NCBI GenBank assembly: GCA_035578905.1
Contig: JAQJVL010002544.1
Location: forward strand, 1-64,000
Source: Stictocephala bisonia
Lineage: Eukaryota > Arthropoda > Insecta > Hemiptera > Membracidae
Length of the DNA stretch: 64,000 bases
Direction of reading: 5' to 3'
The first letter of the stretch is position 1; each line of letters begins with the position of its first letter. The translations under genes were made by a program, and so were the position numbers. The notes under the pieces are model-generated. The model worked only from the letters and a program-made list of their open reading frames with translations. It ran no database searches and was not told the origin of the DNA. Shown here in pieces: positions 11,298 to 64,000 of this stretch.

Positions 11298-12109
11298 GTC
11301 AACCTTTCTAACAAATTAGAACTTTTGTTTGATATATTATTATTAATACATGTCAAGACGAGACTAATAAAAAATGGAACCTTATTTCCTTTGTCCTATC
11401 CACAGAGTAATATTATTTATGTGACAATTTATTACATATGATCTGTCTATGAGTCCATCGATTGCACACTTACCATCCCAACACACTCCACTTCATGTCT
11501 CAAATTCACATCAGTGTCACAGTGACTCAAGAGCATATGTTTTTTTCCAGGACAGTAAAGACGGTGTTTTTAAATTATCAGCGGGGGAGGGGATTCATAA
11601 GCTTCAAGAAGTATATTAGTAAATTATTATCATCTGAAGACTTATTTACAATGCGTTTCAGTGCCTACATTAAAAAAAATTACCCCGGTGATATATGTTT
11701 TTATTATTTATTTCAAAAGAATTGTTTAACATATTTTTATTTTTTTGAATACGATTATTCTGTAATAAATCACATTACGATTTTAATGGAGCTTTTTATG
11801 TAAATTATTGTAAGTTTACATACCCATACACGTACAAAGGCATTGACCCACCCATACACGTACAGTGGCATACCTTTTCGAAGTAACTCAATTACCACTC
11901 GTGCGAGTAAAGAGTCGGGTTGAGTTGCCACGTTTGACCCCTTCAAGCATCGGTCTACCCAAATTTTTCTGTATATTTTAAATGTATTTTACTTTAATAC
12001 TTAATTTCAGGTATTTTAAAAGTCCAATGTAACTTTTAAACATTTTCATGTAAACTTGAAATATATTGAATTCGAAGCGATGTTCGAATTTATGCACAAT
12101 TTTCTCAAT
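11298..12109. other. spacer, AT-rich, no gene (block A)
   Basis: Shared with block B at 53663-54443. At 11819-11868 it holds two copies of a unit cccatacacgtacagtggca; block B has only one. The same unit forms larger arrays inside the gypsy element (19085-19330 and 19600-19692). Confidence 0.6.
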
Positions 12110-12361
12110 ACGATAAAAACACAAACTAAAGAGCACATTTACCGAACGATAAAAACACAAACTAAAGAGCACATTTACCGAACGATAAAAACACAAACTA
12201 AAGAGCACATTTACCGAACGATAAAAACACAAACTAAAGAGCACATTTACCGAACGATAAAAACACAAACTAAAGAGCACATTTACCGAACGATAAAAAC
12301 ACAAACTAAAGAGCACATTTACCGAACGATAAAAACACAAACTAAAGAGCACATTTACCGA
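12110..12361. repeat. 36-bp minisatellite, 7 copies (block A)
   Basis: Seven perfect or near-perfect 36-bp units (each starting acgataaaaacacaaac). Since 36 is a multiple of 3, one frame on each strand stays open across the array (IKTQTKEHIYRT repeats on plus, FSLCFYRSVNVL repeats on minus), which makes false ORFs. Block B has 10 copies. Confidence 0.97.
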
Positions 12362-12631
12362 ACGCTAAACTTTGGAATTCATCTAATTATAACCAAGGCT
12401 TATTTATAATGTAATTTTTTATGAACTGAAATAAATTCTTAAATAATAAATAAATGCACAGTTTTGCAAGTAAAACTTTCAAATATTTACCATAGTTATG
12501 ATGCGTTGAATATTAAAGACTAACTTAATTGTAGTGTAAGTCCATAGAAATAATTACAACATATTGTTTATACAACATAATAATCATTTCTTCCAGTCGT
12601 TTTAGAAAATATTTGACAAATTTACTAAATT
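12362..12631. other. AT-rich spacer between minisatellites
   Basis: Nothing recognised; colinear with block B 54804-55073. Confidence 0.6.
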
Positions 12632-12946
12632 AAACCTAGACCCAGCCACTCCCTCACTGATACACATTCTAAACCTAGACCCAGCCACTCCCTTACTGAT
12701 ATGAATTCTAAACCTAGACCCAGACACTCCCTCACTGATTCACATTCTAAACCTAGACCCAGCCACTCCCTCAATGATACACATTCTAAACCTAGACCCA
12801 GCCACTCCCTCAATGATACACATTCTAAAGCTACTCAGCCACTCACTCAATGATACACATTCTAAAGCTACCCAGCCACTCCCTCACTGATACAAATTCT
12901 AAAGCTAGCCAGCCACTCCCTCACTGATACACATTCTAAAGCTATT
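12632..12946. repeat. 37/39-bp minisatellite (block A)
   Basis: About eight tandem units built on ccagccactccctcactgat. The first units are about 39 bp and begin aaacctagac, later ones are about 37 bp and begin aaagctaccc. Block B has the same array with a different order of variants. Confidence 0.93.
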
Positions 12947-15900: not shown

Positions 15901-16284
15901 TTATGACAATAAAGAAGCTGTTTATTTTATGTATAGGAAATAGGGATGAGAAGAATTTTGAGATTTCTTTATGTATTTTGAATGGTCGTGGAAGTATGAA
16001 TCTTAATTCAGAAACCATTTCGGAATATCATTCTCATCATGTTATGAACTAATTCCTCGGGTGGTTGAAGTAGTATTCAGGGCTAAAATACAAACTGAAA
16101 GAAGTACACCGAGCTGTAAAATGTTGGTACAGTAATTACAATAATCACAATGTATTGATATTCGACGAACCTAATAATTTTGCTGTTTTGTGATATATAT
16201 ATATATATATCAACAATATATATATCAACGGCAATAGACACAAATTACAGAATTTCCTTCACAATGAACATTGTTAAGTGAGCA
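12947..16284. other. spacer, no gene recognised (block A)
   Basis: Colinear with block B 55383-58700. It contains small frames at 13724-13972 and 14726-15052 that are kept in both copies but have no recognisable domain; the second reads through a G10 run that makes a false polyproline end. A direct repeat (ttgttttaattgatactatt) occurs near 15098 and 15218. (TA)n runs at about 15796 and 16193 differ in length from block B. Homology with B ends at 16284. Confidence 0.6.
16278..16283. other. candidate empty target site of the Polinton-like element
   Basis: GTGAGC followed by aactcgac. In block B the same GTGAGC (58694-58699) is followed directly by AGTAGTAGGG, the candidate left end of the Polinton-like element. 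Polintons make 6-bp target duplications and begin with AG, so block A would hold the uninterrupted site. Confidence 0.6.
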
Positions 16285-16379
16285 ACTCGACAGCTAATTA
16301 AAGAAAATAGTTGTAAGAAGCAAATAGGTATTAGATCTTTTTTCCAGCCATCTACCAGTGGTGTTTATAAAAACCACAA

Positions 16380-16620
16380 ATACTATAGTACAGTATTAAT
16401 AAAATAGAAGAATTCTGAATTAAGAAATGTTTTGTCAATTTGAAGCTAAATGACAAAACATTTAGCTTAAAATTGACATAAATTATACATAACCAAGATA
16501 TTCGAACAATAAAAGCAAGGCCCAGCAGTTCATTTAAAAACAAAAATAATAAAGTAAAAATAATAAACACATGTTCAAAAATAATTTTAAAAAGCACTCT
16601 TCAACCAAAACACAGATTCA
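16380..16620 (-). repeat. left (3') LTR of the gypsy element
   Basis: Aligns with 20440-20630 plus 21677-21705. It ends (plus strand) in cagattca, i.e. starts TGAATCTG on the element's strand. A hairpin aaatgttttgtca/tgacaaaacattt at about 16425-16462 is absent from the other LTR. Confidence 0.75.
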
Positions 16621-16638
16621 TATAATTTTCCCCCTCTC
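16621..16638 (-). promoter_or_regulatory. polypurine tract of the gypsy element
   Basis: On the minus strand GAGAGGGGGAAAATTATA lies directly before the 3' LTR, the expected place for the plus-strand DNA primer. Confidence 0.75.
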
Positions 16639-16801
16639 AACGATGAAGACTAGTAATCTTTTAAATAGTTAGGGGGCCTTCGAATTCTTTGAGGTCGCTG
16701 ACTATCACATGAAGATCGCAGACTTCCATCTGGGAAACCATCTTCTAAATTGTTTTGAGAACTACTTGGCGACAGACGATCATCTTCTTCCTGTTGCATA
16801 T

Positions 16802-17755
16802 TTAGCGATTGAGATTGCAGTAGCTTATCATCCCTTGAAGGTGATCATTACTATTTTCTAAAACAGAGTAGTCTTCTGTTCCTCGAGGAGCCAAGTATCT
16901 CAAATATACTTTGGTTTCCGTCCCATCAGGAAGCTGAACAAAGACGTAGATGGGATTAACCTCTAACAGTGACACTTCTTGAACTTGCGGATCATATTTT
17001 GAAGAGTTGGCATGTCTTTTCATCAATACATACCCTGGTACAGACAGCCATGAAGGTAAAGATGAACCACAGGAACTTCGTCTTTGAATGTTGTTTAAAC
17101 ATTCTTTCATGAGGTGTTTCATTTGTTGAAGTGCAAAGCAATGAACGTATGGCATGTAAAGCTTCACCTAGGACACATTTCCACCGATTAACCTCTAGGT
17201 TTTTAGACTTGAGTGCTACTAGCATGATTGTTTTCCAAATTACTCCATTGTATCTTTCAGTTTATCCATTGCCCTGTGGGTTGCAGGCAGTTGTGTGACT
17301 TGAAGCTGTTCCAATTGAAGTAGAAAAGTTTTAAACTCTGCACTCATGAAAGACGAAGCTCGATCGGAATGAATGTATGAAGGTGTGCCGAAAATATAGA
17401 AAAGACGTTTCAAAGTTTCTATTATTGTAGCTGAGGATAGATCTGCACATGGTATCGCAAAAGAGAATCTTGAATATTCATCAATTATTGTCAAGAGTTA
17501 TCGATTTCTTGAGGAATAAGGTATAGGGCCTTTAAAATCTAGATTTAACCCCTCAAAAGGTGCAATGGTTACCTTTTGAGCTTTTTTGCAATGGTCAATA
17601 TAAATGAGCTTACCTTCAGTTTTCAAATAGTTAGGTTTGATTTCGCAACAAAACTTACAATTTCTTTTCATCTCCCTGACCTCATTGATTGAAAACGGCA
17701 AATTCTTGCATCGTATCCAATGAAACATTCTTGTAACGCCTGGATGACACATACG
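16802..17755 (-). pseudogene. gypsy integrase remnant
   Basis: Minus-strand integrase in four overlapping broken frames. In order: the zinc-binding HHCC part (MCHPGVTRMFHWIRC ... CKFCCEIKPN), the first catalytic Asp in LNLDFKGP, then YSRFSFAIPC and HSDRASSFMSAEF with the second Asp, the region holding the last Glu in damaged form (KDTME near 17245), and a C-terminal part ending near 16860 (VYLRYLAPRG) with the SH3-like chromatin-binding look. Frames change at about 17495, 17235 and 17165. It is not functional as it stands. The family is certain at the Ty3/gypsy level, the lineage is not. Confidence 0.88.
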
Positions 17756-18720
17756 CGTTTGCAGCTAACTAAGAGTAGGACTTGAGATTTCATTTGGTCG
17801 TTTGGAATAGGAAAGTCTAGAAGAGGTTGGAGCCTAGTTGGATCTGGACGAATGATATGATCAGAAATCGTATTGCCTAGCAAGTTTATGGATCCTTTTG
17901 AAAAAGTAGCCTACTCTTTTCTTTATTGATATTTAGATTGTATTTATCCACGGCTTCCATGAACTTCTGTATATTTGCATCGTGTTCTTCTTGATTATTT
18001 ACGCAAACAATAACATCATCTAAATAAGCGAAAGTATCTTGAAGATCTTCAGTTTTAATTATCTCATCTATAAACCTCTGAAAACATGGAATCCCATTCG
18101 TTAAACTAAAGGGAATCCTACAAAATTCGTATAGTTTGCCATTTGCTTCGAAAGCGGTGTACGGTCTTTCAAACTGATTGGAACTTGGTGATAAGCACTA
18201 CTCAGATCAATAATGCTGAATATAAAGCACTAGGCTACTTTATTGATAATATCATTGACTCGAGGAAGAGGATAAGCATCCAGTTGAGTAAATTTATTTA
18301 TGGTTTGTGAGTAGTCAACACACTTAAATTTCTTATGATTTTCATTAGCAACGACGACAACTTACGCTCTCCATGGTGATTTACTTTCTATAATTAAACC
18401 TTCTTTTAAAAGACGTTTGATCTTCATATCAATAAACTGTCTATCTCGCAAAGAAAGGCTCCTGCTTTTAGTAGATATTGGTTTACAGTCTGGAGTTACG
18501 TTTTCAAACAACTTAGCCTCAGGAACATTTGCAACAGCTAAATTACATATTTCAAAAGAGGGCTTGGAACCTTTAAACTCAATTACAGATTTTTCATATA
18601 ATTGCAGTATGTCATCATGACCTATTATGAAATCAACGCAATAATTTGGTAATACTGAAACTGGAAAATGTTTGAAATAATGATCTTTTAGTTTCAAGTT
18701 TACATTACAGGTAATACTTT
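17756..18720 (-). pseudogene. gypsy reverse transcriptase remnant, RNase H missing
   Basis: Minus-strand RT. The N-terminal part (18697-18362) has the palm entry KSRSLSLRDRQFIDMKIKRL and GLIIESKSPW. After frame breaks between about 18360 and 17890 the pieces QLDAYPLPRV, IIDLSSAYHQVPI, FSLTNGIPCFQRF and the catalytic YLDDVIV (YxDD box, near 18020) are readable. The thumb follows (LGNTISDHIIRPD near 17860). Straight after it the sequence passes into the integrase zinc finger, so the RNase H domain that should lie between appears to be deleted. Several frameshifts and stops are present. Confidence 0.88.
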
Positions 18721-18784
18721 AATTATGCATGATAATGACTTGGAAGCCATTGATATTTTATTAATTGAGGTTTCAGAACTAAAC

Positions 18785-19072
18785 TTAGATCTTTTGCAAA
18801 TTGTTCGTTGCAAATCTTGAAGAGCTCCCACTATCTACTAAAGCTTTGGCATTCACTCCATTAACAGTTAAATCAACCAGTGTTTTAGACAAACATGCAG
18901 GAGCAATTACTGAAATTACATTACCTTCAGAAAAATCGTTCGTTGATTTGTCACCTGTAGATGAAACAGCTATTTTTGATTTGTTAGATTTTGAACGGCA
19001 CACTATTGCAAAATGACCTATTTTGTTGCAGTAACGACATGTCATTGTCGTCTCTTTATATAGTAAAATCAA
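18785..19072 (-). pseudogene. gypsy nucleocapsid knuckle and protease remnant
   Basis: 95-codon minus-strand frame. It starts with a CCHC zinc knuckle CRYCNKIGHFAIVC and continues into a retroviral-type aspartic protease with the active-site motif ALVDSGSSSRF (D-S-G in place of the commoner D-T-G). It is cut off from the rest of gag by the insertion at about 19060-19740, so the polyprotein is broken here. Confidence 0.85.
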
Positions 19073-27380: not shown

Positions 27381-27924
27381 AATCCACCACCTACCTACTC
27401 AACACTACACTCTCGTTAGATCATCTTAACATTCATCGAATAAGGCTTTTGATTGTCCATCTACCCATCCATAAGCTCATGTACAAGACACCTACCAAGC
27501 TCCATAACCCTTCCTATTCAGTAGTAAGACTCTCCTACCCATTTACCCAACACACAGTTATTTTATATACCAACTACCCTCCCAACACGTAATATTATCG
27601 ACATACCACTTACTTAACATACAAGACTGACCATACACTCTACATAGAAGACGTTTGATTATCCACTCACCTACTCAATACACACAAAACACTTGTTTGA
27701 TCACACAACAATTTAACAAACACAACTGTCGATTGACACTCCACCTTCCCAAAGCATAAGACTTTTGAAGGACCACCTACCAAAGATACAAAAATCATGA
27801 TAAACAAACTACACACTCTGCAGACATGACTTAATATACCATCATACTACCATGAAAATAGTCCTATTGACATACCCCTACCTATTTAACATACGCACCA
27901 CACCCCATAAAATCATGACTTAGG

Positions 27925-28620
27925 AGTCCACCCACCTACTCAACACACAACACCTCTGATAGATCATCCACCTAACCATTACATAAAACCTTTGTGTGAC
28001 TCACAATCCTAACATTCATGAACAACCATCCTCCTAAACATACGACTTAACCACCCACAAAAACAAGACTTTATGTATAACCACCTATTTAACATACGTA
28101 ACACACACCATAAAATCATGACTTAACAGTCCACCAACCTACTCAACACACAACACCTCTGATAGATCATCCACCTAATCATTACATAAAACTTTTGATT
28201 GACTCAAAATCCTAACATTCATGAACAACCATCCTCCTAAACATACGACTTAACCACCCACAAAAACAAGACTTTATGTATAACCACCTATTTAACATAC
28301 GTACCACACACCATAAAATCATGACTTAACAGTCCACCTACCTACTCAACACACAACACCTCTGATAGATCATCCACCTAACCATTACATAAAACCTTTG
28401 ATTGACTCGCAATCCTAACATTCATGAACAACCATCCTCCTAAACATACGACTTAACCACCTACAAAAACAAGACTTTATGTATAACCACCTATTTAACA
28501 TACGTACCACACACCATAAAATCATGACTTAACAGTCCACCCACCTACTCAACACACAACACCTCTGATAGATCATCCACCTAACCATTAAATAAAACCT
28601 TTGATAGACCACCAACACAC
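27925..28620. repeat. 203-bp tandem repeat in left palindrome arm
   Basis: About four units, gtccacc at 27925, 28129, 28332 and 28534, each holding aaaatcatgacttaacag and aacatacgacttaaccacc. Confidence 0.92.
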
Positions 28621-29399
28621 ATGAACAACCTTTCTACCTACCTACGTTACATCCAACACTCTAGACTTACCACCCACCTACTCAACACATAGATAGACCA
28701 CGTAACTACCCATTACACAAAACCTTAGATTTACTCACAACATTCATGGAAGACCTACCTACCAAACATACAACTTAACCACCCACTTAGCCAACTCACA
28801 ATTATCATTACAGACCAACTACCTTCCCAACACAATACCTACTGTGTAGTCATCTTTATATACCACATACCATACCAACACATAAACTTATTGACAGACT
28901 ATCTACTTAACATACAAGACTTACTTCCTAATAGACAATCTACATAAGGCTTTAGTTATCATTCCAACTATCCAACACACATGTACAAGACACCCACCAA
29001 ACTCCATAACCCTATCTATCCATTAGTAAGACTCATAATTTACCCAACACACAGTTATCTTTACAGACCAACTACCCTCCCAACACATAATATTATTGAC
29101 AGACAACCTACTGTACATACAAGACTTACCACCCACCTACTCAACACACAGATAGACTACGTAACTAACCATTACATACGACATCTGACTGACCACCTAC
29201 CTACCTAATATACTAGACTAACCACACTCTACATACATACACCCACCACTCATCCTACAGACAAAACTCCTAGAGAACTATTTTAAAATAACATTATTAC
29301 ACTGTAAGATAGGTTTAATATAGCTAAAGACCTAAAATGTTTCCTAAAATTCTGTTTTCTCTAGAAATATGAGAGCCGTTGGTGGAATACATCCAAACT

Positions 29400-29875
29400 A
29401 AACATAGAAAAAGTTAGGTTTAAAATCAATGAATATAGAAAAAGTCTGGTTAAAAAAATGAACATAGAAAAAGTTAGGTTAAAACAATGAACATACAAAG
29501 GGTTAAAAAATAAACATAGAAAAAGTTAGGTTAAAAAAATGAAGATAGAAAAAGTTAGGTTAGCAAACATCAGAAAAGTAGGTCTAGCAAACAACCGAAA
29601 GGTTGATTGCTATCCTTACTTTTCCAAAAAGTTGTTAAAATTAACAAAAGTCAAAAAACCATTTTTTGAGTTGGTAATTTTAACTGAACTTTTCGGATGA
29701 TTGCTAACCTAACTTTTTCTATGTTCATTTTTTTAACTTAACTTTTTCTATTTTCATTTTTTTAACCTAACTTTTTCTACGTTCATTGTTTTAACCTAAC
29801 TTTTTCTATGTTAATTTTTTTAACCTAACTTTTCTATGTTCATTGTTTTTAAACCTAACTTTTTCTATGTTTAGT
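29400..29875. repeat. palindrome centre with inverted 30-bp repeats
   Basis: Left side has about five copies of gaaaaagttaggttaaaa (29400-29563), right side the complement (29705-29875). The centre itself (about 29600-29690) contains a smaller inverted pair gttaaaatta and taattttaac. Confidence 0.88.
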
Positions 29876-30764
29876 TTGGATGTATTCCACCAACGGCTCT
29901 CATATTTCTAGAGAAAACAGAATTTTAGGAAACATTTTAGTTCTTTAGCTATATTAAACCTATCTTACAGTGTAATAATGTTATTTTAAAACATGATTAT
30001 ATGAAGCAATAGTGTTTTTATGGTGGATGGGTAGTTCTCTAGGAGTTTTGTCTGTAGGATGAGTAGTGGGTGTATGTATGTAGAGTGTGGTTAGTCAAGT
30101 ATATTAGGTAGGTAGGTGGTCAGTCAGATGTCGTATGTAATGGTTAGTTACGTAGTCTATCTGTGTGTTAAGTAGGTGGGTGGTAAGTCTTGTATGTACA
30201 GTAGGTTGTCTGTCAATAATATTATGTGTTCGGAGGGTAGTTGGTCTGTAAAGATAACTGTGTGTTGGGTAAATCATGAGTCTTACTAATGGATAGATAG
30301 GGTTATGGAGTTTGGTGGGTGTCTTGTACATGTGTGTTGGATAGGTGGAATGATAACTAAAGCCTTATGTAGATTGTCTATTAGGTGGTAAGTCTTGTAT
30401 GTTAAGTAGGTTGTTTGTCAATAAGTTTATGTGTTGGTAAGGTATGTGGTATATAAAAATGTCTACACAGTAGGTATTGTGTTAGGAGGGTAGTTGGTCT
30501 ATAATGATAATTGTGTGTTGGCTAAGTGGGTGGTTAAGTTGTATGTTTGGTAGGTAGGTCTTCCATGAATGTTGTGAGTAAATCTAAGGTTTTGTGTAAT
30601 GGGTAGTTACGTGGTCTATCTGTGTGTTGAGTAGGTGGGTGGTAAGTCTAGAGTAATGGATGTAATGTAGGTAGGTAGCAAGGTTGTTCATGTGTGTTGG
30701 TGGTCTCTCAAAGGTTTTATGTAATGGTTAGGTGGATGATCTATCAGAGGTGTTGTATGTTGAG

Positions 30765-31745
30765 TAGGTGGGTGGACTGTTAAGTCATGATTTTATGGTG
30801 TGTGGTACGTATGTCAAATAGGTCGTTAACATAAAGTCTTGTTTTTGTTGGTGGTTAAGTCGTATGTTTAGGAGGATGGTTGTTCATGAATGTTGGAAGA
30901 GGTGTTGTGTGTTAAGTAGGTGGGTGGACTGTTAAGTCATGATTTTATGGTGTGTGGTACGTATGTTAAATAGGTGGTTATACATAAAGTCTTGTTTTTG
31001 TGGGTGGTTAAGTCGTATGTTTAGGAGGATGGTTGTTCATGAATGTTAGGATTGTGAGTCAATCAAAGGTTTTATTTAATGGTTAGGTGGATGATCTATC
31101 AGAGATGTTGTGTGTTGAGTAGGTTGGTGGACTGTTAAGTCATGATTGTATGGTGTGTGGTACGTATGTTAAATATGTCGTTATACATAAAGTCTTGTTT
31201 TTGTGGGTGGTTAAGTCGTATGTTTAGGAGGATGGTTGTTCATGAATGTTAGGATTGTGAGTCAATCAAAGGTTTTATGTAATGATTAGGTGGATGATCT
31301 ATCAGAGGTGTTGTGAGTTAAGTAGGTGGGTGGACTGTTAAGTCATGATTTTGTAGTGTGTGGTACGTATGTTAAATAGGTGGTTATACATAAAGTCTTG
31401 TTTTTGTGGGTGGTTAAGTCGTATGTTTAGGAGGATGGTTGTTCATGAATGTTAGGATTTTGAGTCAATCAAAGGTTTTATGTAATGGTTAGGTGGATGA
31501 TCTATTAGAGCTGTTGTGTGTTGAGTAGGTGGGTGGACTGTTAAGTCATAATTTTATAGTGTGTGGTACGTATGTTAAATAGGTGGTTATACATAAAGTC
31601 TTGTTTTTGTGGGTGGTTAAGTCGTATGTTTAGGAGGATGGTTGTTCATGAATGTTAGGATTGTGAGTCACTCAAAGGTTTTATGTAATGGTTAGGTGGA
31701 TGATCTATCAGAGGTGTTGTGTGTTGAGTAGGTGGGTGGACTCCT
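30765..31745. repeat. 203-bp tandem repeat in right palindrome arm
   Basis: Six inverted units (ggtggact at about 30772, 30925, 31127, 31330, 31531, 31736). The first spacing is only about 152 bp, the others about 203. Confidence 0.9.
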
Positions 31746-32338
31746 AAGTCATGATTTTATGGGGTGTGGTGCGTATGTTAAATAGGTAGGGGTATGTCAA
31801 TAGGACTATTTTCATGGTAGTATGATGGTATATTAAGTCATGTCTGCAGAGTGTGTAGTTTGTTTATCATGATTTTTGTATCTTTGGTAGGTGGTCCTTC
31901 AAAAGTCTTATGCTTTGGGAAGGTGGAGTGTCAATCGACAGTTGTGTTTGTTAAATTGTTGTGTGATCAAACAAGTGTTTTGTGTGTATTAAGTAGGTGA
32001 GTGGATAATCAAACGTCTTCTATGTAGAGTGTATGGTCAGTCTTGTATGTTAAGTAAGTGGTATGTCGATAATATTATGTGTTGGGAGGGTAGTTGGTAT
32101 ATAAAATAACTGTGTGTTGGGTAAATGGGTAGGAGAGTCTTACTACTGAATAGGAAGGGTTATGGAGCTTGGTAGGTGTCTTGTACATGTGCTTATGGAT
32201 ATGTAGATGGACAATCAAAGGTCAAATGCAATGGAGATTTAGGTGATATATCAGAGGTACATTGAGTTTACTAGGTGGGAGGTTAGTCAAAAATCTTGTA
32301 TTTAGAGTTTGTGTGGTCTGATATGTTTTGTATGTTTG

Positions 32339-32798: not shown

Positions 32799-32898
32799 NN
32801 NNNNNNNNNNNNNNNNNNNNNNNNNNNNNNNNNNNNNNNNNNNNNNNNNNNNNNNNNNNNNNNNNNNNNNNNNNNNNNNNNNNNNNNNNNNNNNNNNN
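32799..32898. other. assembly gap, exactly 100 N
   Basis: 100 N is the conventional size for a gap of unknown length. The sequence on the two sides is unrelated (LINE on the left, BEL/Pao interior on the right). Confidence 0.99.
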
Positions 32899-48811: not shown

Positions 48812-50164
48812 GTGATTGAAAAATGGTTGATGAAACTTAAAAGAATACAGTAAATGGGAGTTTTAACACCGGCAGTCAGACGTGCCGTACCGTTGGAGCG
48901 GAGACGTGGCAACATTGCTGGGCTTTGATACCGTGCGTAGGCCAATAGGTACTCGCGTCAGATGCGACTGCGCATCGGTTTAAAACAATTTGACGTGTAA
49001 CATCAGTTGCTCGACTTGGCGTTCAGGCAAATACCAATCTGCTTTTCTTTTCGCATTAGTCGAGTCAACAGGAAATGTGCATCAGCCATCCGACATCAGT
49101 TAAATTACTTAGTTACTTTCGTTGTAAGATAGCTGATTCACAATGACTGTGGTGTTGTTGTTACCGATACGCAAAGCCAGCTAATAGTGATTCTGTTTCT
49201 TACCTGCTGTTTCAGTCTCATGCAGACATAAGTGATTTTCCTGCATCTGATGTCCAGCACATCAGTTGCGCAGCTTAAAATGATGCAAAACATCTTATGC
49301 TGTTGTTTCGGACCATCCTAGTGAGGGATCTAGGGCGGTGATTGCCTAAATTCTTCAATAATCCAGATAAGTTAGTTTTTAAGAATTGCAATAGCCAAGG
49401 ATAATTGTGAGATCACGTAGGGCAAAGGTTAGGGAATTTGTGGGGAATGGGCCTTATGACCGTTGATAGTTTTTCCTATGGGCTATGGTGTGATATCTGA
49501 AAACCACATCTTTTTTAAGAAGTAAACGCGTTCAATCAGATCCAATCAACCCAGGGAATGCTCTACTAATAGCTTCTTAATTATGTAGCCTAATCAGTTA
49601 CTTGAAGCCCTGAGCAGATGATAGTCTTTTCTCTGGGAACTTGGTGTCATAACTGGTTCCCTGTAGAGTCTGACCTAGACCGAGTTACTTATTTAAATAT
49701 TAAGTAATCCCTTACATTTTAATTCAGTTATGTACTGGTCAATTGTTAAACCTGGGTTATGGTCTATGCAGTGAATGGTCTTACTGTGTATGTTTCTTTT
49801 ACCGCATTTTATAATCTGTAAATTTATGATTTACTTTCAATGTAGGATCTCCATTATCAATTAGATGTTTAACTGCGAATGGGGTTCTGTTTGGATTCAC
49901 ACCGAAATTCTTAACTAACCAAATTTAAGGTATTACTTCCGATGGCAAAAATCATCTTTGTTGTATCAATGGTAGCATTTTGAACATACTAAATAAAAGT
50001 TGTTGAGTTGTGGGACACCGGTCTAAATCCATTTAGCAAATGTTAGTAGACCTCCCGAGATATAATTCCGTAACCTTTCGCATTGTAAACAAAACTGTTA
50101 GACCAATATGATAGTAGAGGTATACTTTAACAAATACATAAAAACAACTAAATAATTTTTATTC
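48812..50164. other. spacer, no gene recognised (block B)
   Basis: Colinear with 5426-6764, with small indels only. Confidence 0.6.
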
Positions 50165-53058
50165 AACGTTTATGATTCAACCATCAATGTGTATAGAATG
50201 GCTGCCAATGTGTAGCCTATGGAATGACTATCATGGGGTATGATATAACCAACGAACACGGTACAACTATCAACGTTTATGATACGACTGTCAATGTGTA
50301 TAGAATGGCTGCCAATGTGTAGCCTATGGTATGACTATTATCGGGTATGATATAACCAACGAACACGGTACAACTATCAACGTTTATGATACGACTATCA
50401 ATGTGTATAGTATGACTGCCAATGTGTAGCCTATGGTATGACTATCATCGGGTAAGGTTTACCCAACGAACACGGTACAACAATCAACTTTTATGACGAC
50501 TATCAATGTTTATAGAATGGCTGCCAATGTGTAGCCTATGGTAAGACTATCATGGGGTATGATATAATCAACGAACACGGTACAACTATCAACGTTTATG
50601 ATACGACTATCAATGTGTATAGTATATGACTGCCAATGTGTAGCCTATGGTATGACTATCATCGGGAAAGGTTTACCCAACGAACACGGTACAACAATCA
50701 ACTTTTATGACGACTATCAATGTTTATAGAATGGCTGCCAATGTGTAGCCTATGGTAAGACTATCATGGGGTATGATATAATCAACGAACACGGTACAAC
50801 TATCAACGTTTATGATACGACTATCAATGTGTATAGTATATGACTGCCAATGTGTAGCCTATGGTATGACTATCATCGGGAAAGGTTTACCCAACGAACA
50901 CGGTACAACAATCAACTTTTATGATGACTATCAATGTTTATAGAATGGCTGCCAATGTGTAGCCTATGGTAAGACTATCATGGGGTATGATATAATCAAC
51001 GAACACGGTACAACTATCAACGTTTATGATACGACTATCAATGTGTATAGTATATGACTGCCAATGTGTAGCCTATGGTATGACTATCATCGGGAAAGGT
51101 TTACCCAACGAACACGGTACAACAATCAACTTTTATGACGACTATCAATGTTTATAGAATGGCTGCCAGTGTGTAGCCTATGGTAAGACTATCATGGGGT
51201 ATGATATAATCAACGAACACGGTACAACTATCAACGTTTATGATACGACTATCAATGTGTATAGTATATGACTGCCAATGTGTAGCCTATGGTATGACTA
51301 TCATCGGGAAAGGTTTACCCAACGAACACGGTACAACAATCAACTTTTATGACGACTATCAATGTTTATAGAATGGCTGCCAATGTGTAGCCTATGGTAA
51401 GACTATCATGGGGTATGATATAATCAACGAACACGGTACAACTATCAACGTTTATGATACGACTATCAATGTGTATAGTATATGACTGCCAATGTGTAGC
51501 CTATGGTATGACTATCATCGGGAAAGGTTTACCCAACGAACACGGTACAACAATCAACTTTTATGACGACTATCAATGTTTATAGAATGGCTGCCAGTGT
51601 GTAGCCTATGGTATGACTATCATCGGGTATGGTATAACCAACGAACACGGTACAACAATCAACTTTTATGACACGACTATCAATGTTTATAGAATGGCTG
51701 CCAATGTGTAGCCTATGGTATGACTATCATCGGGTATGGTATAACCAGCGAACACGGTACAACTATCAACGTTTATGATACGACTATCAATGTTTATAGA
51801 AGGGCTGCCAATGTGTAGCCTATGGTATGACTATCATCGGGTATGGTATAACCAACGTACACGGTACAACAATCAATTTTTATGACACGACTATCAATGT
51901 TTATAGAATGATTGCCAATGTGTAGCCTATGGTATGACTATTATCGGGTATGATATAACCAACGAACACGGTACAACTATCAACGTTTATGATACTACTA
52001 TCAATGTGTATAGTATGACTGCCAATGTGTAGCCTATGGTAAGACTATCATCGAGTAAGGTTTACCCAACGAACACGGTACAACAGTCAACTTTTATGAC
52101 GGCTATCAATGTTTATAGAATGGCTGTCAATGTGTAGCCTATGGTATGACTAACATCGGGTAAGGTTTACCCAACGAACACGGTACAACAATCAACTTTT
52201 ATGACACGACTATTGATGTTTATAGAAGGGCTGCCAATGTGTAGCCTATAGTATGACTATCATGGGGTATGATATAATCAACGAACACGGTACAACTATC
52301 AACGTTTATGATACGACTATCAATGTGTATAGTATATGACTGCCAATGTGTAGCCTATGGTATGACTATCATCGGGAAAGGTTTACCCAACGAACACGGT
52401 ACAACAATCAACTTTTATGATGACTATCAATGTTTATAGAATGGCTGCCAATGTGTAGCCTATGGTATGACTATCATCGGGTATGATATGACCAACGAAC
52501 ACGATACAACTATCAACGTTTATGATACGCGACTATCAATGTGTATAGTATGACTGCCAATGTGTAGCCTATGGTATGACTATCATCGGGTATGATATAA
52601 CCAACGAACACGGTACAACTATCACCGTTTATGATACGTCTATCAATGTGTATAGAATGGCTGCCAATGTGTAGCCTATGGTATGACTATCATCGGGTAA
52701 GGTTTACCCAACGAACACGGTACAACAATCAACTTTTATGATACGACTATTGATGTTTATAGAAGGGCTGCCAATGTGTAGCCTATAGTATGACTATCAT
52801 GGGGTATGATATAACCAGCGAACACGATACAACAATCAACTTTTATGACACGACTATCAATGTTTATAGAATCATTGCCAATGTGTAGCCTATAGAATGA
52901 CTATCATGGGGTATGGTATAACCGGCGAACACGATACAACAATCAACTTTTATGACACGACTATCAATGTTTATAGAATCATTGCCAATGTATAGCCTAT
53001 GGTATGACTATCATCGGGTACGGTATAACCAACGAACATGGTACAACTATCAACGTTT
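50165..53058. repeat. 107-bp satellite array, about 27 copies (block B)
   Basis: Same family as at 6765. From 50454 to about 51600 it is a regular 214-bp dimer: the aaggttt variant recurs at 50454, 50668, 50882, 51096, 51310 and 51524, exactly 214 apart each time. The rest is a mixed order of the two monomer types. Confidence 0.96.
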
Positions 53059-54443: not shown

Positions 54444-54803
54444 ACGATAAAAACAAAAACTAAAGAGCACATTTACCGAACGATAAAAACACAAACTAAA
54501 GAGCACATTTACCGAACGATAAAAACACAAACTAAAGAGCACATTTACCGAACGATGAAAACACAAACTAAAGAGCACATTTACCGAACGATAAAAACAC
54601 AAACTAAAGAGCACATTTACCGAACGATAAAAACACAAACTAAAGAGCACATTTACCGAACGATAAAAACACAAACTAAAGAGCACATTTACCGAACGAT
54701 AAAAACACAAACTAAAGAGCACATTTACCGAATGATAAAAACACAAACTAAAGAGCACATTTACCGAACGATAAAAACACAAACTAAAGAGCACATTTAC
54801 CGA
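54444..54803. repeat. 36-bp minisatellite, 10 copies (block B)
   Basis: Ten units of the block-A repeat. The three base differences among units (for example cgatgaaaac and aatgataaaa) change the amino acid in the plus-strand open frame, as expected without coding constraint. Confidence 0.97.
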
Positions 54804-55073
54804 ACGCTAAACTTTGGAATTCATCTAATTATAACCAAGGCTTATTTATAATGTAATTTTTTATGAACTGAAATAAATTCTTAAATAATAAATAAATGCA
54901 CAGTTTTGCAAGTAAAACTTTCAAATATTTACCATAGTTATGATGCGTTGAATATTAAAGACTAACTTAATTGTAGTGTAAGTCCATAGAAATAATTACA
55001 ACATATTGTTTATACAACATAATAATCATTTCTTCCAGTCGTTTTAGAAAATATTTGACAAATTTACTAAATT
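54804..55073. other. AT-rich spacer between minisatellites (block B)
   Basis: Nothing recognised. Confidence 0.6.
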
Positions 55074-55382
55074 AAACCTAGACCCAGCCACTCCCTCACT
55101 GATACACATTCTAAACCTAGACCCAGCCACTCCCTTACTTATATGAATTCTAAACCTAGACCCAGACACTCCCTCACTGATTCACATTCTAAACCTAGAC
55201 CCAGCCACTCCCTCAATGATACACATTCTAAACCTAGACCCAGACACTCCCTCACTGATTCACATTCTAAAGCTACCCAGCCACTCCCTCACTGATACAC
55301 ATTCTAAAGCTACCCAGCCACTCCCTCACTGATACACATTCTAAAGCTACCCAGCCACTCCCTCACTGATACACATTCTAAA
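55074..55382. repeat. 37/39-bp minisatellite (block B)
   Basis: About eight units as in block A, in a different variant order. Confidence 0.93.
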
Positions 55383-58300
55383 GCTATTCTCAACATACAT
55401 GTATACAAACCCCGGGTTCAGGCTTTGACCATTTTTGCTCTTAAGGCCACATTTTGAGGCAGTTATTTTTGTACCTGCACCTGAATATGGAGCTAACAGA
55501 ATAAATGTTACAAAAGTGAAACCTTGTATAGACGTTATACACGCGCAACATATTTGATTTTAGACTTGAAACTATTAATTTCATACATCAGGTGTCAAAC
55601 TCTGAAACTACAGAATAATACCGTATTACTAAAATCAAAACTTGTAAACCCGTAATAAACGCTCCACATATTTAAATTTAGATGTTGAAACTAAAATAGC
55701 ATTCATTAGGTGTAAAACTCTTAAACTACATTTAAGAATAAACCAAACAAAATTCTGTAATTCTTTAAGTTTAATAAATTTGCTCAATTAATTTACTTTT
55801 CGAGTTTCAGATAAGTTTCTGTAAAGTTTATAATGTTTAATACTGTGTGAGCACACACAAAATGGATTCTTCTCTTCAATCTGAATACAGTTTCAGGGGA
55901 CTCTTTCGCCCCAAAGATCACACACCTCAATTATGTATCAATGTATTGTCCAAAACACGTACCGGTAGATAAAACAAAACAAAGGCGATGACGGAGCAAA
56001 ACATTAAATGGAGATATAAAATGTTAGTCGGTATAATTTAATAAAGTATCGCTATTACCAGTAAAATTTACATTTGCACTGTACTGCTAATATTGAATAT
56101 AATAATAGAAAATATACAGTAGTACACTACGAGAAATTATTATATTTTAGAACCTTACAGATGCCTTATTACAATTTTACTAACTTTACAAGATATTTCT
56201 TCTATATGAGAAAGGTACTACATGAAAATACACTGTTACTGCACTTTCACTCTGCCTTAAATTTGGTTTCTAATCATCTTGCAATCCTGAAGGATAATTT
56301 TAATCCTGAAGTATGTATATTTAATTACTTACGAAGGCCCGTTAACTATCCATGCCCGATAAGTCCACTCAAACCACCTTACTGTCGCAAAACGTCACAA
56401 CACAGCTGATACCTGTCCACGGCCACTTCGATCAGTCGACGATTCCACAGCAACTGCCTGGCCGATATAGCAGTCATTGTTGGTTCCCCGCTTTCCCTCC
56501 CCTCTACGTCGACGCACAGTATAACTGTTACATAATACACTAAGCTAACCTACAATAAATTTAACAAAATTACATCTGGTTCTCCTCTCTCGATGAGGAA
56601 TCTAATTCGAATTCAGATAATGTTACGCATTGATTCAAGTAATTCGTTTATTACCCTGAAATACTATTTGAAAGTCTTAGAGTTTATCTGCAGTGTTATA
56701 GGATTCTATGTAATCAAAGTAAAACTAATAGTTGTAAGGAGTTAATAAAGAAGATTTATATCAGGATAATGTGCAATATTAACTTATGTTTTCAAAATAT
56801 CGACAAAATATGTGATGCGTAAATGTGGGCAGATATTTCACCGTCAGCCGTCTATACGTGTGGATCTATGTTACTGTTACTGTTAACTACGGGTCGGTTC
56901 GTGTTGTAGTGAACACCGATGGTCCTTTATAGAGGACAATAAGTTTACGTGTGTTTGGTAATTTAATATCTTCAAGAATTAAATTTAACTGTGCGTAAAA
57001 AGTATTAAAATACTTAATATATTTAGAAAACCCAACTTATGGTCGATTAGAATAGCTCTTTATTAATCAAATGACACTTTAAATGTGTTACGATACAATC
57101 ATTATCATGGACCGAATCCTTGAAGTAGAAAGCCATGTTTTTGGCTTTTTACGTGAAAGCCATTAAGGGGGGGGGGGGGAGGTTGTGCGCAATATATATT
57201 GTACGTGTTATTGTTCTTACAAACCGTATGACTAAACGTCCGTTTTACGGATTGTTCCCTAGGTACATCTTCTCTCATTGAGGAAGTAATTACAGTTGTT
57301 CGTGCACGATATTTTTTATTGTGGTCACTGTTATGCTTAATTTTTATTTTCCACAAACACGGAACTCTTTTATAACGCTTAATAAATTCTGTAAAAAATG
57401 TATTAGAGCAGTGCTGCAAGCCCGATGGCATAGTGTTAAATGTGCAAAACAATGTTTTAAATATATTGCACATGAATAGAACAGAGTTCACATCTTTCTC
57501 CTTTCCCCGACAAAAGGATTCTGTGTTTTCACTCTTTGTTTTAATTGATACTATTTATCGATAAAAAGACAATGCTCGCCCTGCCAGATATCCTCTTCTT
57601 TGTGGAATTCATTATATTTCGATAAAACGTACGTTTTGCTGTTTTCGTGCTTTATTTTAATTGATACTATTTATTGACAACAAGACAATAACGATAAAAT
57701 AATGCGTGTATAAACCTCTTTTTATGATGATTTCTCAATAAACTTTATTCAGTCGGACAGTAAATATTTGTTTATTGATATTTATAAAATATTTCCTACG
57801 CGAGGGAGTAAATTGAAACTTGACTGTTACGTCGACTAAGGGAAAGTTCCATATAAATGAAATGTAATATGCTTTATTTAATGAGTCAAAGTTAGGTCCT
57901 TTGTTACACTTAACATTATAAAGGAAATACGATACAAACTAGAATATCTACAAAATGAATATATCTACAAGTTATGAAATAATAATCTATACAAATTAAT
58001 CCTCAAGCGTAAAAGAACATAAAACGAAAGAAGAAAATAAACAACAACTAAATTTCACTAAAAAATAAGAAAAATCAAAATAATTCCAGAAACTAACCAA
58101 CAAACACACAGTAAACACTCCGCTCTACACTGACAGCACGACCGAAGGTTACTGTGTAGTGTTTGTTTAACTTGGACGTAGTTCAGTGTTCTTCAGAGAG
58201 TGTCGGCTTTCATGTGGTGTTATATATATATATTTCAAGGACAAGAACACTATTTTAGTTTATCAATTTGTGCACTATGAGTAAGAAATAAATAACAGTT

Positions 58301-58699
58301 TAACGACTTTATCGCCATGAGATTATGACAATAAAGAAGCTGTTTATTTTATGTATAGGAAATAGGGATGAGAAGAATTTTGAGATTTCTTTATGTATTT
58401 TGAATGGTCGTGGAAGTATGAATCTTAATTCAGAAACCATTTCGGAATATCATTCTCATCATGTTATGAACTAATTCCTCGGGTGGTTGAAGTAGTATTC
58501 AGGGCTAAAATACAAACTGAAAGAATTACACCTAGTTGTAAAATGTTGGTACAGTAATTACAATAATCACAATGTATTGATATTCTACGAACCTAATAAT
58601 TTTGCTGTTTTGTGATATATATATATCAACAATATATATATCAACGGCAATAGACACAAATTACAGAATTTCCTTCACAATGAACATTGTTAAGTGAGC
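55383..58699. other. spacer, no gene recognised (block B)
   Basis: Colinear with 12947-16283. Differences from A: shorter (TA)n runs, a 14-base deletion near 58145, and a G12 run at about 57168 instead of G10. No domain seen in the small frames (56074-56409, 57105-57491). Confidence 0.6.
58694..58699. other. candidate 6-bp target duplication of the Polinton-like element
   Basis: GTGAGC directly before the AG of the candidate element end. The same six bases with uninterrupted flank are at 16278-16283. Confidence 0.55.
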
Positions 58700-59850
58700 A
58701 GTAGTAGGGATTTGCCGTTCCTGGCCCAGAGCTTGAATTTCGGGACCAGTGGACCAGAGATTGAATTTCGATATATATATATGGTTAGATGTGTTTAGAT
58801 TGATAATTTGACAGTTTGCTCGGATGGTTGATAATTTTGTGGTGCAGTGCTAGGCGTGAATTGAAAGTTGTGTTTTAGTTTTAGTGCGCGGTGAATGGGT
58901 TCGAGTGTCACGCGGTGAATTCGGCCAGAACGCCGATCGAGATTTCTGCAGTGGCATCGTTTCGCGGAGCACTGTGTAGGCAGTCCCGGCGGTGCGGTGT
59001 TATAAGTGATTCGATCGCGGCACAGGCAGTCCCGGTGGTGCAGTGTTATAAGTGATTCGATCGCGGCACCCCGCGGAGCACTGTATAGGCAGTCCCGGTG
59101 GTGCGGTGTTATAAGTGATTCGATCGCGGCACCCATTCCCCGCTGGTTGTTTGACACGATAACATTCGCGTGGTTGTTTGCGTGAGATTTCGGTGGTGGA
59201 TGCGGCTGCTCCGTCACTTGGCTATCATCTTCCCTCGTCCCTCATCACCTTAATAAAATAATTTCACATCTTCCACAATACTCAAAAAAGTCTTCCCTTA
59301 ACGTTCGCGTATCGTTCATGTAACGTTCAAGTATCGTTCAGGTGACGTTTACGTGTCGTTTAGGTTTCGTTTACGTATCGTTCAGGTGACGTTTATCTTT
59401 CCTCGTCCATGTATCGTTCAGGTGACGTTTCGTCCACCCCAAAAGATTCGATCGCGGCACCCCACGGAGCGCTGTGTAGGCAGTCCCGGCGGTGCGGTGT
59501 TATAAGTGATTCGATCGCGGCACCCATTCCCCGCTGGGTTGTTTGACACGATAACATTCGCGTGGTTGTTTGCGTGAGATTTCGGTGGTGGATGCGGCTG
59601 CTCCGTCACTTGGCTGTCATCTTCCCTCATCCCTCATCACCTTAATAAAATAATTTCACATCTTCCACAATACTCAAAAAAGTCTTCCCTTAACGTTCGC
59701 GTATCGTTCATGTAACGTTCAAGTATCGTTCAAGTATCGTTCAGGTGACGTTTACGTGTCGTTTAGGTTTCGTTTACGTATCGTTCAGGTGACGTTTATC
59801 TTCCCTCGTCCATGTATCGTTCAGGTGACGTTTCGTCCACCCCAAAATAC
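58700..59850. repeat. candidate terminal repeat region with nested tandem repeats
   Basis: Contains four copies of a roughly 60-bp unit (aggcagtcccggcggtgc, ataagtgattcgatcgcggc) at about 58978, 59026, 59088 and 59480, and a 391-bp duplication (about 59070-59450 and 59461-59846; gtgcggtg at 59101 and 59492). The minus-strand frames 58795-59217 and 59418-59630 are readings of these repeats and not genes. Confidence 0.75.
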
Positions 59851-60190
59851 GATCAATTTTCAGGGCGGTCAGAGGAGACAGCTAACTCTGTGCAAATGGC
59901 TACTTATAAGACTAATGTCAACTCAACAGCACTTCTGAGTGCTAACGATATGTATGTGGTGCAGCAACAACATTCATCGTCGTCTTTCCCCTTCGTTCAG
60001 GTGACGTTTATCTTTCCTCGTCCATGTATCGTTCACGTGACGTTTCGTCCACGTATCGTTCAGGTGACGTTTATCTTCCCTCATCCACGTATCGTTCAGG
60101 TGACGTTAACGTGTCGTTTAGGTTTCGTTTACGTGTCATTCAGGTTTCGTTTACGTGTCGTTCAGGTGACGTTTATCTTCTCTCGTCGTC
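59680..60190. repeat. cgttcaggtgacgttt repeats
   Basis: About ten scattered copies of a 16-base core cgttcaggtgacgttt joined by variants (cgtttaggtttcgttt), partly inside the 391-bp duplication. They read in several frames. Confidence 0.8.
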
Positions 60191-60323
60191 CTCGTCGTTT
60201 CTTCACTCTTCAACACCAAAATACGACAAATGTTCAGGGTGGTCAGAGGAGACAGCTAACTCCATGCAAATGGCTACTTATAAGACTAATGTCAACTCAT
60301 CAGCACTTCTGAGTGCTAACGAT

Positions 60324-62075
60324 ATGGCTTCGTCGTTTCTTCACTCTTCAACACCAAAATACGACAAATGTTCAGGGTGGTCAGAGGAGACAGCTAACTC
60401 CATGCAAATGGCTACTTATAAGACTGATGTCAACTCATCAGCACTTCTGAGTGCTAACGATATGGCTTCAAAGAAGCAATGTCCTACTTGCAATGCGTTT
60501 GTACACGCATCAAATATGTCTTGACATCGTAAGACGAAAAAATGTATCGCAGCTTCCACAGGCTACCAATCAACGGTGCTAGCGCTCGGACCTTTTCCTT
60601 CAACCACCACTGTATGTCCTCAGAAGGAAACTTGTCCAGCATGTGGTGTTGACGTTCTGGCTAAAAATATGTCACGACACCGTAAATCGAAACGCTGTTT
60701 GAGTATCACAGTTTCAAATAATCCTAACACTGCAATGCCAGTACTCAACCAGGCATCAAACTATTCGCAAAAGAAACCATGCCCAAAGTGTGGAATTGAA
60801 GTGACTGCATCCAACATGTCACGGCATCGTAAATCGAAAAGATGCATCACGACTTCTTCTCCTGAGCAAACGGCTGCAGTTCCAGATATTCAGACTAGCT
60901 CAAATTCGAATGATGCTACAAAACAGGCATGTACTATATGTGGCACCGAAGTTTCTATTCGTAATATGCTTAGACACAGAAAATCCAAAAAGTGTAACAC
61001 TAATACGATGCTACGCAACAGAGTCAAACGTTTTGGAATCAAACCAGCTCCAGAATCGGTAATGTGTTGGGTATGCGAAAAGTCTATTGAAAAACCTAGA
61101 TATGCCTCACATATAAAATCTAGGGTTCATAAACGAAGGGCAATGATGTATCCATACTCCACAGAATCAGTATTGTGTGAGGTATGTGAGAAGACTATCG
61201 AAAAGTCTAATTTGGTTTCCCATGTAAAATCTGAGGACCACAAACAAAGGAGGATGATGCTACCTTCGGATTTCGTTGTGTCCAATCCAACAATCAAAAG
61301 AATAGAGGAACGTTTTGCTCAACGACTACCAGCCTCAGGTCCTGAAATATCCGAACTTGTTGCAAAATATCCGAAGTCGAAAGTTAATCGCCGGCCTGTA
61401 AAACCACTCCAGACATACGATGAAGATTTTATGAAAAGTAAACGTACGACACCAATCAATCCCAGAGCTTACGCTCGCAAGACAAACAATCGACCAAATA
61501 GCCCATTGCTAGATGATGCTTCCCCAGTATCTTCTCCTCATAGTGACTTTGAGGTAGATTGGTCAGCCCCCATTCCTTCTCCAATCAGCCCTCTACCAGC
61601 TTCCCCAGTATCTTCTCCTGACTTTGAGGTAGATTGGTCAGCCCCCATTCCTTCTCCAATCAGCCCACTACCTGATTCCCCGATTGCTTCTCCTAAGTCA
61701 AAGCCCGAAGATCATGATAGTTCTGATCCTGAATCATATTTGAGGGAGGCTGACATAGATAATGTTATAGAATTATTGGGTAACGTAATCTCAGAAGCAC
61801 GTAGAAATCCAAATTGGAACGAAGCTAAATTTAGAGATGCCATAAATGATTTCGATTTGTCATTTTTAGACGATCCTAAAAAGGAAGAAGTCGTGTTTGA
61901 ACCACCAAAAAGAGTTGTACATTCGGATTCGAATAAAATTAGAAATATAATGGGATCTCCACCTCATTCACCAGAGTCTACACATAATCAGAGTTGGGAT
62001 GAAGATGATCTCGATTTCGATTTAACATATTCACCTAAAAAAAAAAAAACAACATTAACGAGAAATCGTCATTGA
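60324..62075 (+). pseudogene. N-terminal zinc-finger frame of the polymerase gene
   Basis: One plus-strand frame, open from at least 60024 to 62075 but for a TGA at 60522-60524; the part after it starts at an ATG at 60576 (499 codons). It holds four Cys2-His-Cys fingers of form C-x2-C-x11-H-x5-C (about 60480, 60632, 60779, 60930; e.g. CPACGVDVLAKNM), the first broken by the TGA, then two C-x2-C-x11-H-x5-H fingers (about 61066 and 61177; CWVCEKS and CEVCEKT). A Ser/Pro-rich acidic part follows with a 25-codon in-frame duplication (61545-61694, FEVDWSAPIP). Upstream, a 46-codon block (WSEETANSMQM) is duplicated with a 138-bp period. The start at 60324 is a choice (MASSFLHS); the true start is unclear. 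The TGA sits where the other fingers have CGA/CGG-type Arg, fitting C-to-T decay. The frame ends four codons after... an A13 run, ten codons past it, while polymerase coding goes on in another frame. Confidence 0.7.
62037..62049 (+). other. A13 run at the frame junction
   Basis: Thirteen A. The zinc-finger frame continues only to 62075 past it, and the polymerase frame opens at it in -1. It may be a length change in the run, a sequencing indel, or a slippage site. Confidence 0.85.
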
Positions 62076-64000
62076 ATATACCAAACAGTCCCGTTTATGG
62101 ATCTCCACTTCACTTTCCAGACAGTCCCTCATATTCACCACTGAGTCCAACTGATAAAAGAGAAGAAGAAGAAGACGACGACGACGACGACGATCTAAGT
62201 TCAGATTCAGATTCCGTGTGTACTGTAATTGAGAACCCCAAGTACAAAAATAAAAACAAACCAGATAATCCAACGTTGGAAAACTCGCCACAGAACAATG
62301 TGGATGAAGAGAAAGAAGAAACATTCGAACTACATTCACTGGCCGAGGCTATCCGGGAAAAACAAACCGCTTTCTGGGGACGATTGAAAACCTACACTAT
62401 TGCTAATCAACTAGCATTCAAAGATGTGTTCCGTTTCTTTAATGCGTATAAACCCCTAGTCATTGAGCTGATTGAAAATGAAATATTGAAAAATAACCTA
62501 AAAGCTAACGTTTGGTTTTTCGCTGTTTACAAACGGCCAGCAGATGGCAAGGTTATTGAGCGAACCATGAATTTCAAAACGAAAAATACAGTATTACTGC
62601 CCACTTCAGATATATCAGAATATTACGATAGCACAAAGAAAAAAATCATGGCCCAGATGGAGGAATTTCAGGAGAACGGATCGCAATGGACGCTCAAAAA
62701 TATCGAAGGCATGGAAATTAGATTGAACAAATATATTCCCCTGAAGGGAGCTAGCTACATACCACTACCTCCAGCTATTGAAAACCGGAAAGCTGTTATC
62801 AATGTGGAAAATAATGATCAAAAGTGTTTCTTGTGGAGCATTTTAGCCGCACTTTACCCAGCAAAGAAACATTCTCAACGGGTGAGCAAGTATAAAGCAC
62901 ATGAACATGAATTTGACGAATATCTTAAAGGTATTGATTTCCCGGTACAGACTTCCAAAGTTCCGACATTTGAGGAACGTTCCGGTATTTCAATTAACAT
63001 ATATGCTTATGATGAAAAGTTTATAATCTATCCTCTCCTAGTTACAAATGAAGAAAAAGTCCAACACGTAGATTTGTTGTATATGAAGAATGAAAAGCAA
63101 GCTCATTACTGTTACATAAAGAATCTGGAAAAATTAGTGAATTCACAAGTGACAAAAAATGGACATAGAATCTGGCTGTGCAGACGGTGTCTTCAGCATT
63201 TCGGAAGAGAGGATTTGTTAGATAAACATAAATTGGACTGTGGGAACCACAAAGCTTTGAGAGTCGAGTTGCCAGATGAAGGTTCTTTCATCAAATTCAG
63301 ACAATTCAACTGCTCGATGAGAGTCCCGTTTGTATTCTACGCTGATTTCGAATGTTGTTTGATTCCAATAAAAGAAGCACAAAAGGAGAAGGATCCAACC
63401 GAAGGAATCACAGAACCCTATACCCTGCGATATCAAAAACATCGACCAATAAGTTTCTGTTTGTATGGAACACACGACAGAGGTATTTATAAACCACCAG
63501 TTAGTTATTTCGGCGAGGATGCAGCTTCAAAATTTGTAGATACATTAATATGTGAATCGGAGGAAATCTTTAAACGCTACAACAGTGAGAATGCGGTTCC
63601 AATGTTACCACTGACTGATCTTGAATTGAGAGAGGTTGAAATCACCAACAGATGTCACATATGTAGAAAATTATTAGAAGATGACCGCGTGATGGATCAT
63701 GATCATATAACCGGTAAATTCAGAGGTGTTGCCCATAACAAATGTAATTTGAATTATAAAGTGCCTAATTTCATACCCGTCTTCATTCACAACTTGGCTG
63801 GTTATGATACACACCTATTCATTAAGCAATTCGGAGAGCGTGGTAACACTATCGATATAATACCAAACAACGAAGAGCGGTACATTTCGTTTACTGTGAA
63901 GGTGGAAAATGGTATTAAACTACGATTCCTTGATTCTTTCAAATTTATGAGTCTCAGTTTGGACACTCTCGTAAGCAACCTGCCTAAAAGTAAACTAATG
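62048..64000 (+). pseudogene. protein-primed family-B DNA polymerase, N-terminal part
   Basis: 651 open codons in the -1 frame relative to the zinc-finger frame, entered at the A13 run (62037-62049) and running off the window. After an acidic SP-rich linker comes the N-terminal domain common to invertebrate Polinton-type polymerases (FKDVFRFFNAY, GASYIPLPPAIENRKA, CFLWSILAALYP near 62830). Then a Cys/His finger (CRRCLQHFGRED near 63180), the 3'-5' exonuclease first motif FYADFEC (D and E metal ligands, near 63337), an inserted His-Me/endonuclease VII-like finger (CHICRKL ... MDHDHITGKFRG ... HNKCN, about 63656-63750) and the second exonuclease motif HNLAGYDTH (near 63790). The polymerase palm and the priming-specific TPR motifs lie beyond the edge. 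It would copy the element's linear DNA from a protein primer. No ATG starts this frame near its beginning, so it depends on the upstream frame. Confidence 0.85.

Follow-up and report, generated by a model that had tools for sequence, protein, structure and literature searches.

Polintons, also called Mavericks, are regarded as transposons and viruses at once. Vertebrate Mavericks, as described in PMC8097293, generate a target-site duplication (TSD) of 6 bp, have (AGT)2//(ACT)2 ends and terminal inverted repeats (TIRs) of 46–1,447 bp, and range in size from 12.7 to 24.6 kb; their genes are generally arranged in two modules on different strands that point to the centre, and the same account presents most vertebrate copies as degraded. 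Adintoviruses are defined, in the description given by PMC11071296, by an OTU-like N-terminal domain in PolB and a C-terminal chromodomain in the integrase, and some of them carry zinc-finger genes. Ginger transposons, according to PMC2836005, have termini of the type TGTNR and TSDs of 4 bp, or of 5 bp in the case of TDD-4/5, and Ginger1 is only about 2.6–7 kb long. Here, an element of the Polinton kind was analyzed in the hemipteran Stictocephala bisonia. The window, that is, the whole stretch of DNA analyzed, comprises positions 1–64000 (64,000 nucleotides) of contig JAQJVL010002544.1, hereafter C2544; the contig is 93,076 bp long, which allowed the right part of the element to be read beyond the window. 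Two homologous blocks of the window, A and B, are central to the analysis. With a probability of about 0.94, block B carries a 13,995-bp Polinton/Maverick inserted in a dispersed repeat with the TSD GTGAGC, and block A is its empty counterpart.

Junctions, terminal repeats and the empty site

An initial annotation of the window, made from its sequence, had placed the start of a Polinton-like element at 58700, where the homology between A and B ends, and this left junction was confirmed to the base: TTAAGTGAGC is directly followed by AGTAGTAGGG, position 58700 being the first base of the element. At the right junction the sequence reads CCCTACTACT, then GTGAGC, then AACTCGACAGC, and the last base of the element is C2544:72694. 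The whole element thus occupies C2544:58700-72694. The hexamer GTGAGC, put forward as the target duplication, is present on both sides, and the proposed AG start and CT end are read as AGT...ACT at 58700 and 72694. The flank AACTCGACAGC, predicted to follow the right GTGAGC, is seen to the right of 72,694, exact to the base. From there, homology to block A restarts at 16278 and extends in pieces, with 98–99% identity, to about 25,787. Neither of the outcomes that had been named as contrary to the proposal, absence of a terminal repeat past 64000 or a right flank unrelated to 16284 onward, was encountered. The right end lies 8.7 kb beyond the window edge; an extension of 15–25 kb past 64000 had been suggested for finding it. 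The inverted copy foreseen for 58700-59850 was found in part, since the first 142 bp are inverted at the right end, whereas the rest belongs to a region of tandem repeats that is present at the left end only and is perhaps regulatory.

The left TIR measures 142 bp and the right one 156 bp; the two are identical at 142 of 142 comparable positions, their sole difference being a TA tract that is 14 bp longer on the right. Identity of the TIRs outside this tract suggests that the insertion is recent. A 20-bp portion of the TIR (TTTGCCGTTCCTGGCCCAGA, in inverse orientation) is repeated directly inside the right TIR (L009 8519-8538); no second copy of this kind was reported within the left TIR.

That block A keeps the empty site, as had also been claimed, was borne out by the single GTGAGC found there. 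Block A reads TTAAGTGAGCAACTCGACAGC across the site, with no footprint, and its matches to the left and right flanks of the element overlap by exactly these six bases. The 121 bp that span the empty site can be aligned in full or nearly in full at 39 other places of the genome, with 93–96% identity (40 of 506 candidates scored). Because these 39 copies are continuous across the site, the empty state is taken to be the original one. The flank 58100-58712 was found near-identical over its full length only at itself and in block A (96%), the next match showing 77% identity (40 of 483 candidates scored); within it, a 61-bp stretch that is part of a dispersed repeat recurs at 95–98% in many places. 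Coordinates of all these features are collected in Table 1.

The duplication of GTGAGC is observed, and the anatomy of the element points to how it would have arisen: a retrovirus-type integrase would join the AGT...ACT ends to a staggered cut of 6 bp. PolB would presumably produce new linear copies by protein-primed synthesis beginning at the (AGT)2 ends, and these copies might perhaps pass within virions.

Table 1. Features of the locus, in window coordinates unless C2544 is indicated
Feature	Position	Strand	Remarks
Block A, left flank of the empty site	12110-16283	+	98.4% identical to 54552-58699
Dispersed repeat around the target, 121 bp across the empty site	16225-16345	+	
Empty target site of block A, with one GTGAGC	16278-16283	.	
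Block A, right flank of the empty site	16278-19042	+	99.0% identical to C2544:72695 onward
Scaffold gap of 100 Ns between the contig with block A and the contig with block B	32799-32898	.	
Left TSD copy, GTGAGC	58694-58699	.	right copy at C2544:72695-72700, beyond the window
Left 5.3 kb of the Polinton, inside the window	58700-64000	+	
Left TIR, starting (AGT)2	58700-58841	+	inverse at C2544:72539-72694
Tandem repeats at the left end, short ones and ones of 138 bp	58978-60469	+	no copy at the right end
Open reading frame with C2H2-like zinc-finger units	60462-62075	+	one in-frame stop at 60522-60524
PolB, N-terminal part	62039-64000	+	continues at C2544:64001-65801, with one frame change there

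Family members and target sites

The genome, of 1.68 Gb, was searched with the left end and with the TIR alone; 40 of 408 and 40 of 349 candidates, respectively, were scored, so that family counts are lower bounds. Ends and the expected partner regions were retrieved for many of the matches, and end matches starting after TIR base 3 were dropped. An exact 6-bp duplication was present in 26 of the 28 elements for which both ends were read, versus 0 of 756 combinations in a control with mismatched partners, and the 26 exact TSDs differ in sequence between elements. Twelve further ends remained single: for six the partner region was fetched and gave no match, and for the other six it was not retrieved. 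Element lengths ranged from 11,768 to 14,283 bp, with a median of 13,631 bp. All 56 paired ends carry AGTAGT, a motif favoured by the TIR similarity used to choose the ends. The first 70 bases of both TIRs are the same in 17 of the 28 elements and show 1–3 differences in nine; in two elements an ungapped comparison of these bases gave 25 and 43 differences, which an indel could cause. The family numbers tens of copies and probably remains polymorphic.

A central pyrimidine-purine (YR) step was found in 19 of the 26 exact two-ended target sites (background 0.26, p 7e-7); the step, one of five looked at, had been noticed in these sites before it was tested on them. In a follow-up that took the hexamer beside a single end as the duplication, with no partner to check it, 9 of 20 distinct hexamers, collapsed from 23 single ends, had a central YR step (p 0.05). 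The site of the element in the window, GTGAGC, has none. The dinucleotide TA lies just outside the 6-bp target on 12 of the 52 sides of the 26 exact duplications (background 0.098, p 0.004). Retroviruses with 6-bp duplications are reported in PMC4422553 to favour a central YR step. As a lead only, the target pattern of the Polinton family (central YR, T/A just outside), if upheld, would suggest a bending of the target shared with retroviruses. A wider proposal, which we advance tentatively and rate somewhat short of even odds, is that the family is transposing now in the living insect, with capsid-bearing copies segregating as presence/absence alleles and the integrase bending its target at the central YR step like retroviral intasomes. 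If this is true, an animal Polinton would become directly testable for integration and for the production of virions.

Alleles, duplicates and other readings of the two blocks

Between blocks A and B, 121 of 15,798 aligned bases are mismatched (0.77%); this tally omits the tandem repeats at about A 6751-11292, as well as A 11293-12369, where identity is 94.9% and the differences are mainly gaps. The homology of the two blocks is bordered on the left by a long terminal repeat (LTR) element, which in A is a solo LTR (3422-3709), with duplication of GATAG, and in B a tandem array. At the right border, A has a poly-T start and then an open reading frame (ORF) resembling a LINE reverse transcriptase, judging from its appearance only. 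No homology of A and B was found beyond these two borders. Empty copies of four outside elements (C7699, C5516, C502 and C667) were searched for with their joined flanks. Two were obtained, both for elements on small contigs: that of C7699 on C3 (594 bases, 100%) and that of C5516 on C98 (240 bases, 100%), the two flanks overlapping by 6 bp in both cases. Compared over longer flanks and tallied by hand, the filled and empty copies mismatch at 19 of about 3,310 bases (0.57%) for C7699 and at 12 of about 1,940 (0.62%) for C5516.

From these comparisons, A and B most likely represent two alleles at a single locus, A without and B with the element, which the scaffold places one after the other. 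An alternative, which we consider unlikely, is that they are a true segmental duplication and that the Polinton entered copy B afterwards; the mechanism of insertion would be the same and the empty site would be paralogous. Both copies do lie within one scaffold, as such a duplication would have it, but they belong to separate contigs joined by 100 Ns, and the ends of their homology are explained by retroelements. Moreover, duplications of unequal ages should differ more in divergence than the three filled/empty pairs, which are on different scaffolds and for which a single level of heterozygosity fits better. Several observations nevertheless weigh against the interpretation of the locus adopted here. 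Four contigs (C5992, C5491, C5130 and C6338; L089-L092) carry one and the same insertion, with the shared flank AATCTCAAAGAT at the Polinton end; stretches present several times therefore exist in the assembly, as a duplication would require, and because of them the allelic relationship falls short of proof. For C667, on a larger contig, the search with joined flanks gave no empty copy, and for C502, also on a larger contig and inserted in a repeat, the best match to the joined flanks was 98%. Among the family, two of the 28 pairs have no exact TSD (C4038 has a single mismatch, and C5557 no duplication at all), and two of the 12 single ends (C143 and C6928) start with TGTAGT instead of AGTAGT.

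Two further readings concern the empty site and the junctions themselves. Block A could once have been filled and have lost the element by precise excision, a process from which single-copy empty sites can in general also arise. This was rejected on account of the continuity of the surrounding repeat at the 39 other places, and the one clean GTGAGC of block A also makes it most improbable; precise excision is not known for elements with a retrovirus-type integrase. It is harder still to credit that the junctions are an artefact of assembly or a chimera: the scaffold is indeed interrupted by one gap, and homopolymer runs within the element could contain errors, but not a single N occurs between 32899 and 93076, and the same termini recur elsewhere with 26 exact TSDs of different sequence. 

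Other repeats were noted in the window. The array of the LTR retroelement that has a solo LTR in block A lies at the start of the right contig (32899-47052; period 5,646 bp, about 2.5 units, 99.8–99.9% identical) and looks BEL/Pao-like, a label taken from the appearance of its ORFs; a 1-kb probe of it matched 24 other places with 83–98% identity over most of the probe. Both blocks contain a tandem array with a unit of roughly 107 bp (6760-10295 and 50163-53058), the length of which differs between A and B. Near the end of the left contig, a large palindrome (27880-31787) contains 203-bp tandem units, with a strong and opposite GC skew in its two arms.

Genes of the element and comparison with known systems

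Judged by its predicted genes (PolB, an A32-type ATPase, PLA2, a double-jelly-roll capsid protein, an rve integrase, a penton and, weakly, a protease), the element is a Polinton/Maverick. All features of this group that were tested were found, namely the 6-bp TSD, AGT-type TIRs, PolB, rve integrase, ATPase, capsid and penton, save for the weakly supported protease. PolB matched DNA_pol_B_2 (1.8e-16) on one piece, its frame being broken in the assembly, and its N-terminal part contains an endonuclease VII-like segment (1.3e-05) and an RNase-H-like match of only 0.026. The integrase matched rve in Pfam (PF00665, 5.7e-14) and, by sequence, the PFV integrase (6.2e-06); its D,D,E residues were chosen by motif, the second D being separated from the E by 33 residues, and its Pfam matches up to E 1 include no chromodomain family. 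The A32-type packaging ATPase matched PF04665 (8.1e-10) and gave no match to PDB sequences at E 0.1; the one clear match in PHROGs was to a terminase-like family, for this ATPase. The major capsid protein was assigned by sequence (PF21738, 5.2e-30); its profile found one meaningless match in PDB, and when viral contigs were searched with the alignment of the capsid, none of 50 pattern-matching stretches was confirmed as a relative. The element also encodes the PLA2 protein and the penton, a minor capsid protein with a jelly roll. In the protease-like protein, H55, D70, Q98, C106 and C110 are invariant in 18 aligned sequences; the best PDB match of its profile was adenain, at an E of only 0.011, and the single sequence gave no match in PDB.

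The frames for capsid, penton and integrase run from a start codon through without a stop. Those for the ATPase and the protease-like protein are also free of stops, yet show no evident ATG ahead of the conserved part. Unless the frame change in PolB and the stop in the zinc-finger ORF are sequence errors, this copy, as assembled, would have to rely on a PolB supplied by another source.

The element is thus of a known kind, and its value lies in a recent, probably segregating family with preserved pre-integration sites. Three sites with filled and empty forms in one assembly place recent integrations beside the pre-integration sequence, and make it possible to examine in live insects whether the element remains mobile and whether it produces particles. 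In titles and abstracts of open-licence articles in PMC, nothing was found on leafhopper Polintons, on presence/absence polymorphism of Polintons or on a palindromic Polinton target; a literature on Polintons and Hemiptera exists, including an aphid mobilome and an arthropod survey. The capsid protein is 65–69% identical to leafhopper proteins (Macrosteles quadrilineatus, Homalodisca vitripennis), and one capsid relative, from a source labelled lgn, is 98% identical. The Homalodisca penton shows 50% identity over nearly the full length and 55% over part of it, and the leafhopper match of the protease-like protein 66% over 81%. These leafhopper matches, compared as single proteins irrespective of element structure, are named only as uncharacterized or hypothetical proteins.

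Ginger transposons are not known to carry capsid genes. As PMC2836005 presents them, they resemble the element in having a Gypsy-like integrase and TIRs; membership in this group was rejected on the basis of the 6-bp TSD and AGTAGT termini found here versus 4 or 5 bp and TGTNR. With adintoviruses, in the terms of PMC11071296, the element shares a PolB accompanied by a retrovirus-like integrase, a hexon-like capsid and a penton, as well as a zinc-finger gene, a type present in some of them. With the vertebrate Mavericks portrayed in PMC8097293, it shares the TSD, the end motif, the TIR length, the size and the genes for PolB, ATPase, integrase and capsid. It differs from them in that the integrase alone is reversed among its assigned genes, and in that its best named protein matches are in leafhoppers.
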